NCBI GenBank assembly: GCA_023301565.1
Contig: JALZUO010000174.1
Location: 1-32,621 of the forward strand
Length of the DNA: 32,621 nt
From: Oligoflexales bacterium
Lineage (GTDB): Bacteria; Bdellovibrionota_B; Oligoflexia; Oligoflexales; JALZUQ01
Reading direction: 5' to 3'
In this document: positions 2,177 through 32,621 of the stretch, piece after piece
Layout: each line of letters opens with the position of its first letter
Numbering within the stretch: the first letter of the stretch is position 1
Program-made: the position numbers and the translations under genes
Notes under the pieces: model-generated
The model's database searches: none
What the model was told of the DNA's origin: nothing
Seen by the model: the letters and a program-made list of their open reading frames with translations, nothing else

Positions 2177-2832
2177 TTTTTAGTTTGCATGATAATGGCT
2201 GATTTATTGCCAACTCCAGCACCACTTTCTTCAGCTCTTTGCATCATTCCGTTCTCACAGAACATAATTGTAGCTTCTGTATTGCTTTCTGGATTTGCAG
2301 CAGCGATTCCAACGCAGGATCCTAAATTTGCTCGTCCATGGGCAAGAGTGCCAGAAACATTTGCCTGAACCGCTTCATACCTTGGGTAACCTTTTCCGTT
2401 CTTACTCAATGTGTTTTGCAAAACAATACAAGCAGCACGTACTAACTCGCCATGATCAAATTCTTCATGAGGAGGAAGCATCAACTGTGAGCTTCGGCTG
2501 TACTCATTGTATTGCCCAGATCTCAAAAGTTTACCTGCACTATCAAGTGCCAAACCGTAAGATGCTCCAACATTGTCAAAGTCTTGTGTATAACCAGCTT
2601 GGAAATGAACCTCAGCGTTTCTACCAAGCTTCGAAACAAGAGCCTGCCCATGGTCACCGCAGTATTGTTGCACTGCTGTGGTAGCTTGCTCATCTGAAAT
2701 CGGCGTAGAACCCTGTAGTGCCACATCTAGAAGGCTGCTAGCAGAGCCTCCAGCAAACGGGATACAAGCGTGAGTTGCAAAGCCAAGGGCCACTATACTA
2801 ATAAATAATATGTTCTTTTTAGATAATTTCAT
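2173..2832 (-). CDS. Exported protein of unknown function (219 aa)
   Basis: I do not recognise a family. Residues 1-22 form a signal peptide: positively charged MKLSKK, a hydrophobic stretch through residue 18, then THA before Cys23. The -3 residue is Thr20 rather than Leu, so this is a poor lipobox. It may be a lipoprotein with an atypical site or a normally cleaved secreted protein. The mature part has further cysteines at 58, 135, 173 and 192, compatible with disulfides in the periplasm. The start lies 2 bases after the stop of the calcium-binding lipoprotein gene, so the pair should be one transcript and may work together. The gene is convergent with hemC, and the two stop codons share bases in a TTAG tetranucleotide. 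Confidence 0.75.
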   Translation of the reverse strand: MKLSKKNILFISIVALGFATHACIPFAGGSASSLLDVALQGSTPISDEQATTAVQQYCGDHGQALVSKLGRNAEVHFQAGYTQDFDNVGASYGLALDSAGKLLRSGQYNEYSRSSQLMLPPHEEFDHGELVRAACIVLQNTLSKNGKGYPRYEAVQANVSGTLAHGRANLGSCVGIAAANPESNTEATIMFCENGMMQRAEESGAGVGNKSAIIMQTKN

Positions 2833-28711: not shown

Positions 28712-31315
28712 ATGACCTCTTCGTCGACACTAAATGACATCATTGTAGAAAACGTTGCAACGGAAGTCGGGTGCAAACCTGTACATGCCACGACTGTTTT
28801 AGAGATGCTACGCATCGAAGAGCTGTCCGTACCCTTTATTGCCCGCTACCGGAAAGAAAAAACGGGTTCGATGCGAGAAACCATGATTCGCGCGCTGCGT
28901 GATCGCTACCAAACACAAGCCGTCCTGCAAGCAAGCGTTGAGAGGTTTTCTCAAGCTGTCACCCAACTTGCTGAACGCAAACCAGAACTTAAAAAAAACC
29001 TAGCAGCCGTTTTAAAGTCTTTTGCAGATGCCAAAACAAAGACGCAGCTAGATGATTTATATGCGCCCTACCGCCCAAAAAGGCAAACCAAAGCCTCTGT
29101 AGCAAAAGAAAAAGGCTACGAAACACTTTTAGAAAAACTCTTAGAAGATAGTCCAGAACAGGACTTTGGGGCAATCTGCCTAGCCTTCTTAGATAAAAAG
29201 TTCCCGGCACCGGAGACAGAGGAAGAAAAAGAAAGAGCAAAAACAAACCCAAGACCAAACGTCGAAGACGTACTGCAAGGGTGTAGAGATATCTTTGCTG
29301 AACGCATCCAGGACAATCCTTCCGTCCGCGCGAGCTTGCGTAAGTTCTTTTTAGACACTGCTGTGGTCAAAAGCGCAGAGAACAAAAAATTCACGCAAAA
29401 AGACGTAGACGAGAGGGTCAAGCGCAAGCATGACTCCATGGTCAAAAACTTTTCGGATTATTTTGAGTATCAAGAAGCCCTGCACAAGATACCAAGCCAC
29501 CGCCTTCTGGCGCTTAGGCGTGGGCAAACCAGGAAGGTACTCAAGCTAGAAATAGAAGTAGATCCAGACCAAGTTAAAAAACTTGCTGATAGCGCGGGTG
29601 TTATAGCTCCAGAAGCATCGGTTCAGCTGCGCAAATTCTACGAGATAGCCCGAGACGACTCGCTCAAGCGTCTGATTTATCCGTTAATGGAAAACCAAGT
29701 ACGCCTAAGCATGAAGGAAAAATCAGATGGTGACGCCATCCGTGTATTCACAGAAAACCTAAAGAACCTCCTGATGCTTCCACCTATACCCACGGCTGTA
29801 GTCATGGGGATAGACCCAGGCTACAAAACAGGCTGTAAAATTGCAGTTGTATCCCAGGCCGGTGGCTATTTGGCTTCTGAAATCGTCAAGCCAAACCCAA
29901 AAAACCCAGAAGCAGATGCTTCTGTTGCTGCTGCTGATAAAATCAAACAACTGATCAAACTACATTCGGTTGAATACATTGCGATTGGAAACGGAACTGG
30001 ATCACGGGAGATCAACCAGTTAGTAGTCAGCGTGTTGAAATCTGAAAAATTTGAAAAAAGCGTCGTAAGGCTAATCGTCAACGAAAGCGGAGCGAGTATA
30101 TATTCGACCAGCGAACTTGCTGGCGAGGAGTTCCCAGACCTTGACCCAACCATCCGAAGCGCGGTAAGCATTGCCCGCAGGCTACAAGACCCTCTTTCTG
30201 AGCTAGTAAAAATAGACCCAAAATCCATTGGTGTGGGCCAGTACCAGCACGACCTACCCCCGGCTAGTCTTGATAAAAGCCTAGGGGAAGTCGTCGAGTC
30301 TTGCGTAAACAGAGTGGGCGTCAACCTTAATACGGCTTCTTCCAAGCTTCTTTGCTACGTTTCTGGTATCAAAGAAAACATGGCCCGCAATATAGAGTCG
30401 TACCGGTCAGCAAACGGCAGCTTCACTTCGAGATCAGACCTTCTGAAGGTCGACGGTGTGGGCTCAAAAACATACGAGCAAGCAGCTGGGTTTTTGCGTA
30501 TTTCTGACGGTGCAAACCCACTAGATAACACCGGAGTGCATCCAGAGCGCTACGATGTCGTACAGAAAATAGCTTCAGACTCAAACATGAGTGTAGGTGA
30601 ACTTTTAGGGAACCGGGACGCACTGCGCGAGCTTGACATGGAAAAATACGTAGACGATCAGGTGGGCATGCCGACCCTAAAAGACATGATGTTTGAGCTC
30701 CAAAGACCTGGAAGAGACCCTCGGGTCCAAGGTTCGCGGATGCGCACCACAAAGGGCGTGGACACTTGGGCAGACCTAAAAATGGGAATGGTCCTGCAAG
30801 GGACTGTCACCAACGTCACCAGTTTTGGTGCTTTTGTGAATGTAGGCATCCACGAAGAGGGCCTTGTACATATCAGCGAGATTTCCAATAAGTTTATCCA
30901 AGACCCTACTTCGATGATTCCTGTAGGCTCTGTCGTCCGCGTAAAGGTGACCGAGCTTGATAACGAACGCAGTAGGTTGGGACTCAGCATCAAGCAAGCA
31001 GCCCAAAGCTCCAAAAGAGAAGGCGCCGGCAGGTCCCGAGGCGAACGATCTGGTGACAGGTCTGGAGAAAGACGCCCAGGAAGTGATCAGAGAAATGGAC
31101 AGAGTAGCGGCCAGAACGGCAGATCCCCGCAAAACCGCGCTGGAAGCTCCGATCGCAAGAGGGCTTTTTCCGGTAAAGACCGCAAGCCGTCTAGAGGCAA
31201 GCCTGGCCAAGGGCAAAAATCGAACCGCCCGTTTAGCGTAGGTCACAAAAAGAAACAACAGGACAAAAAAGACGGCTTTAGCATAGACGACCTGATGAGC
31301 AAATTTGGGAAATAA
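28712..31315 (+). CDS. tex: Tex-family RNA-binding transcription accessory protein
   Basis: 867 residues. The N-terminal Tex region holds VPFIARYRKEKTGSM; the middle is a YqgF-like RNase H fold (VVMGIDPGYKTGCKIAVV, near 360-377); helix-hairpin-helix repeats follow (VNLNTASSKLLCYVSG, LLKVDGVGSKTYEQAAGFL). An S1 domain at about 690-765 reads MGMVLQGTVTNVTSFGAFVNV and EEGLVHISEIS. After it, residues about 766-867 are a low-complexity tail rich in Arg, Gly, Ser, Gln and Lys, ending FSIDDLMSKFGK. Tex affects transcription and RNA binding; its exact function is not settled. The ATG at 28712 has only a weak ribosome site. Length exceeds the usual 720-780 because of the tail. Confidence 0.95.
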   Translation: MTSSSTLNDIIVENVATEVGCKPVHATTVLEMLRIEELSVPFIARYRKEKTGSMRETMIRALRDRYQTQAVLQASVERFSQAVTQLAERKPELKKNLAAVLKSFADAKTKTQLDDLYAPYRPKRQTKASVAKEKGYETLLEKLLEDSPEQDFGAICLAFLDKKFPAPETEEEKERAKTNPRPNVEDVLQGCRDIFAERIQDNPSVRASLRKFFLDTAVVKSAENKKFTQKDVDERVKRKHDSMVKNFSDYFEYQEALHKIPSHRLLALRRGQTRKVLKLEIEVDPDQVKKLADSAGVIAPEASVQLRKFYEIARDDSLKRLIYPLMENQVRLSMKEKSDGDAIRVFTENLKNLLMLPPIPTAVVMGIDPGYKTGCKIAVVSQAGGYLASEIVKPNPKNPEADASVAAADKIKQLIKLHSVEYIAIGNGTGSREINQLVVSVLKSEKFEKSVVRLIVNESGASIYSTSELAGEEFPDLDPTIRSAVSIARRLQDPLSELVKIDPKSIGVGQYQHDLPPASLDKSLGEVVESCVNRVGVNLNTASSKLLCYVSGIKENMARNIESYRSANGSFTSRSDLLKVDGVGSKTYEQAAGFLRISDGANPLDNTGVHPERYDVVQKIASDSNMSVGELLGNRDALRELDMEKYVDDQVGMPTLKDMMFELQRPGRDPRVQGSRMRTTKGVDTWADLKMGMVLQGTVTNVTSFGAFVNVGIHEEGLVHISEISNKFIQDPTSMIPVGSVVRVKVTELDNERSRLGLSIKQAAQSSKREGAGRSRGERSGDRSGERRPGSDQRNGQSSGQNGRSPQNRAGSSDRKRAFSGKDRKPSRGKPGQGQKSNRPFSVGHKKKQQDKKDGFSIDDLMSKFGK

Positions 31316-31354
31316 GTTTGGAAAGCATGCCTTCCTGACACCCTTTAAAACGGT

Positions 31355-31591
31355 CTAATCAAAACTGCACTCTGACCAAACAACGTCATTGCTGCAGGTA
31401 GAATCACTGTTTTCTTTGATGCAAAAGCTGAGCTTTAGATTTGGCACCTTTTTGAAGATGCAGTGATGCATTGTATTCAAAGCTACAGCCTCAAGCTTTT
31501 GAATGCTTATAAATCGATCAAAAACTCCTTGAGACTCAGATTCTCCATCGATTTCGTCTATTTCAAGCCTGATGCGACGGCTGTTTAGATC
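31355..31591 (-). pseudogene. In-frame continuation of the right-edge gene beyond an amber codon
   Basis: Directly after the TAG at 31592-31594 the same frame stays open for 78 codons to a second TAG at 31355-31357. It begins DLNSRRIRLEIDEIDGES and ends SNDVVWSECSFD, and contains four cysteines. There is no ATG, GTG or TTG near the TAG to start a separate gene; the first internal ATG would leave 38 residues. It therefore reads as the severed C-terminus of the upstream gene. It ends 39 bases from the convergent tex stop, a normal gene spacing. Read-through or a sequencing error are alternatives. Confidence 0.55.
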
Positions 31592-32621
31592 CTATTCCAC
31601 GTCTTTCACGGCTTCCATCACAGATTCTAATTTGAAATAAGGGAACCCCTTAGACTTAATGCAATAATCAGAGACATAATCACCCTCTACTTTTTTATAC
31701 TTAGAAGAGAGAGCTCCGTTGTCTTGGTTTGATCCAATCTTAAACTTTTCGCTCCTAACAAAACCAAAGGTTATCTGAAGATCAGCGTAACCTTCAGGCA
31801 TATTGTTATTGTCATCTTTTATCTTTGCCAGCTCATCCTCGTCAATGCAGTACTCTATATTGAAAAACACGTAGCTGTCTTTGTTATATTTAAATAGTTT
31901 TTTCTTGTTCCTGGTAGCTTCAGCATTTTTTTTCTGGTTCTTCTCTACGGCAATCAGGCTTCGATAGCTATTGCTTTGCAGAGGGCCTCGCAGCGCACTC
32001 AATAGTTCCTGCGCGCCATCAAGAGACGAGTCTACAACTTTAGGTCGATAATCACTGTGTACATCCTCTAAAAAATCTCTTCGCATCAGATAAGGGGTAA
32101 GATCACCTTTTTTGACTAGCCCCCCTTGGAAAAGCTTCTTATCTCTAACTTCTTTTTCAAAAATAGAATTGTAAACTACTTGCTTATGAATGTAGTAGGG
32201 CTCTTTTACAAAGTCTTTTTCTCTATAGTCTATGTATACTGGAGAATACAAAGGGCGATGTTTATGATGGCTCCACGTACCTTCAACCTTTGCACCCGCA
32301 ATAATCGGACCAATATAAAGCCAATCACTGGCACCACTGAAACGATGACCAGAACTTCTAACATTACCAAAAACATACAGACCGCTGTTAGGCAGCAGCA
32401 GGGTGGATTTTATTCTGGCAGCTTCGGCAATAGAGACGCCCAACTTATGGCCAAAAGGGGCGAACATAACTTTGGAGAGCCTATGTGATGCAATAATAGG
32501 TTCATCAAACAGCTCGTAAAACGTAAGTGTCTCTAGGATCTTTTTAGGCAAGTCCAACTTAAGGCTCTCATAGGCTGACTTTACTTTAATGTAGCTCGGC
32601 GTTAGAGCGTCAATCTTCTCT
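31592..32621 (-). CDS. Protein of unknown function, 5' end outside window, possibly truncated by a nonsense codon
   Basis: The frame is open to the right edge (first visible residues EKIDALTPSYIKVKSAYESLK), so the TTG at 32557 is an internal leucine codon rather than the start. 342 residues are visible. I recognise no family. Seen features: a Gly/Ser/Trp segment FSGASDWLYIGP, a basic KKN-rich stretch (EKNQKKNAEATRNKKKLFKY), then an acidic one (IDEDELAKIKDDNNN). No signal peptide can be judged. The gene ends at a TAG, but the frame stays open for 78 more codons that look coding. It is convergent with tex. The base composition seems more AT-rich and Lys/Asn-rich than the neighbouring genes, a weak hint of a different origin. 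Confidence 0.65.
   Translation of the reverse strand, partial: EKIDALTPSYIKVKSAYESLKLDLPKKILETLTFYELFDEPIIASHRLSKVMFAPFGHKLGVSIAEAARIKSTLLLPNSGLYVFGNVRSSGHRFSGASDWLYIGPIIAGAKVEGTWSHHKHRPLYSPVYIDYREKDFVKEPYYIHKQVVYNSIFEKEVRDKKLFQGGLVKKGDLTPYLMRRDFLEDVHSDYRPKVVDSSLDGAQELLSALRGPLQSNSYRSLIAVEKNQKKNAEATRNKKKLFKYNKDSYVFFNIEYCIDEDELAKIKDDNNNMPEGYADLQITFGFVRSEKFKIGSNQDNGALSSKYKKVEGDYVSDYCIKSKGFPYFKLESVMEAVKDVE

Follow-up and report, generated by a model that had tools for sequence, protein, structure and literature searches.

The window, by which we mean the whole stretch of DNA analysed, is an entire contig (C174) of 32,621 bases and belongs to a 2.78-Mb draft genome (184 contigs, 92.12% complete). 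An open frame of 342 codons on the minus strand (31592–32620) enters the window from the contig end, and since the window is the whole contig, the 5' end of the gene is cut off. The frame ends in an in-frame TAG (31592–31594, minus strand), a candidate premature stop located about 1 kb from the contig end. Past this codon the same frame stays open for 78 codons (31358–31591, minus strand) up to a second TAG (31355–31357, minus strand), which was probably the original end of the gene. The original prediction of a TAG that interrupts a frame continuing for 78 codons to a second TAG was thus reproduced at these coordinates. The TAG at 31592–31594 is the only stop within the 421 codons of the joined frame. 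It had also been claimed that no new start codon follows the TAG; this is true of codons 1–37 of the extension, which are free of ATG, GTG and TTG, but not of the codons after them, where TTG at 31480, ATG at 31471 and GTG at 31447 lie in frame.

The portion of the gene upstream of the TAG, hereafter the body, had a codon score of 37.7 over 342 codons, and four windows taken from it were each coding-like in the same frame. The first possible start in the body is TTG at 32557; since the 21 codons ahead of it also scored as coding (4.2), the gene probably starts beyond the contig. The last 150 bases were also compared with the contigs of the genome for an overlap that would extend the gene, but they matched only the window's own end.

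The interrupted gene converges on a plus-strand gene (28712–31315), which we take to be tex-like from its protein sequence and which had homologues of 46–47% identity in five of the eight related genomes asked. The gap between the two genes is 276 bases when counted from the first TAG and 39 bases when counted from the second. Nine of 76 crudely called convergent pairs, the present pair included, were separated by at least 276 bases, and the comparison of the two gaps lends weak support to the second TAG as the original end. Within the 39-base interval that separates the second TAG from the tex-like gene (31316–31354) lies a hairpin-like palindrome (31320–31335, minus strand), a candidate shared terminator identified by consensus match only. 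A terminator scan returned five sites against a shuffle mean of 1.1; the evidence for a terminator is weak because the four other sites fall inside the gene body. Folds of a longer stretch did not single out the palindrome. It is possible that the palindrome serves as a shared terminator of the convergent genes.

The original prediction had ascribed a coding-like composition to the sequence after the TAG, and this was borne out by a codon score much nearer to those of real gene windows than to those of out-of-frame ones and by the comparison with other genes described below. The G+C contents at the three codon positions were 0.46/0.33/0.41 in the extension and 0.49/0.32/0.41 in the body. When the bases of the extension were shuffled, the frame stayed open in 77 of 20,000 shuffles (79 of 20,000 in a second run of the same script). 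The score of the extension was reached by none of 20,000 shuffles under a codon model derived from the 28 genes of the window, and by two of 20,000 under a model derived from the gene's own body. A genome codon model was trained on frames of at least 300 codons in 422,621 bases, contrasted with their other five frames, and under this model the extension scored 4.9. Among real 78-codon gene windows, 199 of 994 scored no higher than the extension, while three of 429 open out-of-frame windows scored at least as high; its whole score was also attained by 17 of 400 shuffles that stayed open.

This signal is distributed unevenly. By thirds, the extension scored 6.3, −0.6 and −0.9; divided at the first possible start, its first 37 codons scored 8.3 and the other 41 about −3.4, so that the support for coding is concentrated beside the TAG. 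Training the model without this gene altered neither the score of the whole extension nor that of its first 37 codons. The amino acid composition also differed between the two parts: tyrosine is absent from the 78 residues of the extension versus 6.4% of the body, and cysteine makes up 5.1% versus 0.6%, with four of the six cysteines in the visible protein falling in the last 78 residues. On the whole, the extension is unlikely to be open by chance. An independent small gene downstream of the TAG was considered as the whole explanation and rejected, since the coding signal peaks right after the TAG and precedes the first possible start.

The interrupted gene was compared with other genes using a sample of 267 coding-like frames in 423 kb of its own genome. 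When ranked by the score of the whole continuation, it stood 21st of the 40 genes whose frame stays open for 40 codons or more past the stop. Nineteen of the 20 genes ranked above it have a start codon at most 11 codons past the stop, and these continuations look like separate in-frame neighbour genes; the other has 25 start-free codons scoring −6.0. Because the higher-ranked continuations look like in-frame neighbours, the comparison was restricted to the codons before the first start, a post hoc test designed after the ranking of whole continuations had been seen. At least 20 start-free codons follow the stop in 33 of the 267 genes, and among these the interrupted gene scored highest (8.3 over its 37 codons; second-best score 2.8). 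The other 32 genes had a mean of −1.70 and a standard deviation of 2.60, which places the interrupted gene at a z of about 3.8. As a positive control, real gene ends were scored in the same way: of 265, 96 have 20 or more start-free codons within the final 78, and of these 96, 67 scored above 2.8 and 13 reached 8.3. One clear case of interrupted coding signal was found among the 267 genes.

Two other openings were seen in these comparisons. The second-best start-free stretch, of 31 codons, lies at L072 (31634–31747, minus strand, in the numbering of the joined stretches L072–L074), where the first stop is also TAG; this may be a further interrupted gene, but as a candidate it is weak. In the window, 63 codons stay open (2177–2368, plus strand) after the TAG of a presumably hemC-like gene, whose name was taken over from the original prediction. 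These codons have a score of 0.7 and overlap a convergent frame (2173–2832), and the opening is an ordinary chance opening.

The use of TAG in this genome was examined. The genome carries prfA, the gene of RF1, with a 515-bit match (cut-off 423.25). TAG is a common stop here: it ends seven of the 28 window genes and, in the 423-kb sample, 87 of 242 coding-like frames; for E. coli, the accessible text of PMC11126739 gives TAG a share of 8% of stops. No CTA anticodon was present among 35 tRNA matches (150 of 165 candidates scored), whose anticodons were read with ARAGORN in 30 loci and five stretches. PylS was matched at 31.8 bits at best (cut-off 178.15); matches were likewise obtained in 13 of 14 control genomes, one of them above the cut-off. 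As the draft is 92% complete, neither absence is proof. TAG is therefore a normal stop in this genome. Reassignment of TAG, including its decoding as pyrrolysine, was rejected on the strength of the RF1 gene, the ordinary use of TAG as a stop, the lack of a CTA tRNA among the matches and the lack of a PylS match above the cut-off, and the earlier judgement that reassignment is unlikely was upheld.

Relatives of the gene were sought in several collections. A search of the gene's own genome with the body as the query returned no paralogue at E up to 1. At E 0.001, none of 95 other genomes gave a homologue. Of these 95, 57 make up both the class and the phylum, and a search of these at a limit of 0.1 gave two weak partial matches (E 0.0046 and 0.0471), of which only the first was returned at a limit of 0.01. 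Judged by eye, one match covers 45 residues of a 1292-codon frame and one covers 57 residues of a HAD-like protein; both were rejected as unrelated proteins. Pattern scans of genome_contigs and viral_contigs, which reach close relatives only, confirmed no relative, and a 22-base pattern from just past the TAG had no match in viral_contigs. Phages and plasmids yielded no relative of the body or of the extension, which were queried apart. None of these homologue searches of genomes, contigs, phages and plasmids returned a protein running through the junction.

The joined protein had no credible match in Pfam, NCBIfam, PHROGs or PADLOC. The extension alone had none in PADLOC, and its sub-threshold matches to other families (RSD-2, E 0.067; TraG, 0.048; V-type ATPase, 0.26; phrog_18783, 0.26) were judged to be due to chance. 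A search of the PDB gave one weak match, a cytochrome c oxidase subunit of 58 residues (E 0.0089), which was likewise put down to chance. A single-sequence structure model of the joined protein had a mean pLDDT of 29.0 and was uninformative. In the one genome of the same family, the order of an ndk-like and the tex-like gene is kept, but by eye the sequence past tex is different. Having no credible relative in the collections searched, the interrupted gene appears to be a lineage-specific orphan.

Based on these results, we consider, with a probability of ca. 0.55, that a lineage-specific gene carries one recent in-frame TAG, 78 codons upstream of the point where it originally ended. A protein-coding gene of at least 421 codons, the interrupted codon counted, would have acquired a single in-frame TAG, at which RF1 would terminate translation, so that the main product would be without its last 78 residues. 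The base would be real in the organism, and the truncated product may be impaired or may represent a strain variant. The change was presumably recent, since no second stop has accumulated in the 421 codons and the coding signal is kept beside the TAG. This explanation builds on the TAG itself, the coding signature just past it and the standard use of TAG in the genome. Counting against it are the low score of the 41-codon tail, the 17 of 400 open shuffles that reach the score of the extension, a composition of the extension unlike that of the body, and the failure of the homologue searches to return a protein spanning the junction.

Single nonsense changes and single-base errors in drafts are both common. 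The main rival is a consensus or assembly error, or the base of a minority strain, in the draft contig, the gene being intact in the organism. We regard this as rather unlikely. In its favour, the site lies close to the end of a contig in an incomplete and fragmented draft, the gene is the single clear case among 267, and there is no second stop in it. PMC7918605, in the text accessible, demanded the same stop in at least two genomes as a guard against sequencing errors, while the stop described here is seen in one. On the other hand, the gene bears no other sign of error, its four body windows being coding in the same frame. It could also be that the TAG is an old and accepted protein end, with the extension as the decaying remnant of an ancestor that was longer. 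The loss of codon signal past the first 37 codons and the divergent composition of the extension would fit such decay, but 78 codons without a further stop would not, given how rarely shuffles of the extension stay open, and we consider an old end improbable. An extension that is non-coding and open by chance is the least probable of the explanations considered. The open shuffles that match its score and the poor score of its last 41 codons would agree with chance, but few shuffles are open at all, few out-of-frame open windows score as high, and the start-free codons rank highest of 33.

Programmed or tolerated read-through of the stop, yielding two protein forms, one short and one long, would account for a coding signature that carries on past the TAG, but we hold it to be very unlikely. 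A G follows the TAG, and according to the available part of PMC11126739, G in this position lowered termination accuracy in E. coli; the same source, as far as accessible, places TAG below TGA for read-through in E. coli reporters and detected none for TAG genes in its proteome data. Downstream of the stop, the RNA folded slightly better than its shuffles (z −2.17, 1/200), as did a stretch that included the stop and the preceding codons (z −1.79, 10/200), but these z-scores are weak and the four folded stretches were chosen by the analyst. No suppressor tRNA and no PylS above the cut-off were found, although leaky read-through does not need a dedicated decoder. Moreover, the searches returned no relative that would show conservation of the stop and the extension, and the gene is the one clear case among 267. 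That the TAG is deliberately leaky, so that a lineage-specific protein exists in two forms, the rarer and longer of which has a cysteine-rich C-terminal segment, is more doubtful still.

With a recent nonsense change as the favoured explanation, the interrupted gene is an ordinary finding and in itself has little significance. A coding score limited to the start-free codons past a stop can, however, flag an interrupted gene without a homologue at hand, and such a case would escape homology-based pseudogene finders. With one in-frame stop near its 3' end and coding signal before and just after it, the gene resembles a nonsense-type bacterial pseudogene or a nonsense polymorphism. Unlike a nonsense pseudogene that has an intact relative, it had none in the collections searched, and a loss of function is putative. 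The accessible text of PMC7918605 describes in-frame stops as widespread among the genes of bacteria and argues that many of them do not mark pseudogenes. The cases in that text come from at least two genomes and allow dN/dS to be calculated after the stop, whereas the interrupted gene described here is seen in one genome, which gives no dN/dS. It resembles those in-frame stops with suspected read-through in having coding sequence past the stop, and the case illustrated in the same text is likewise a TAG.
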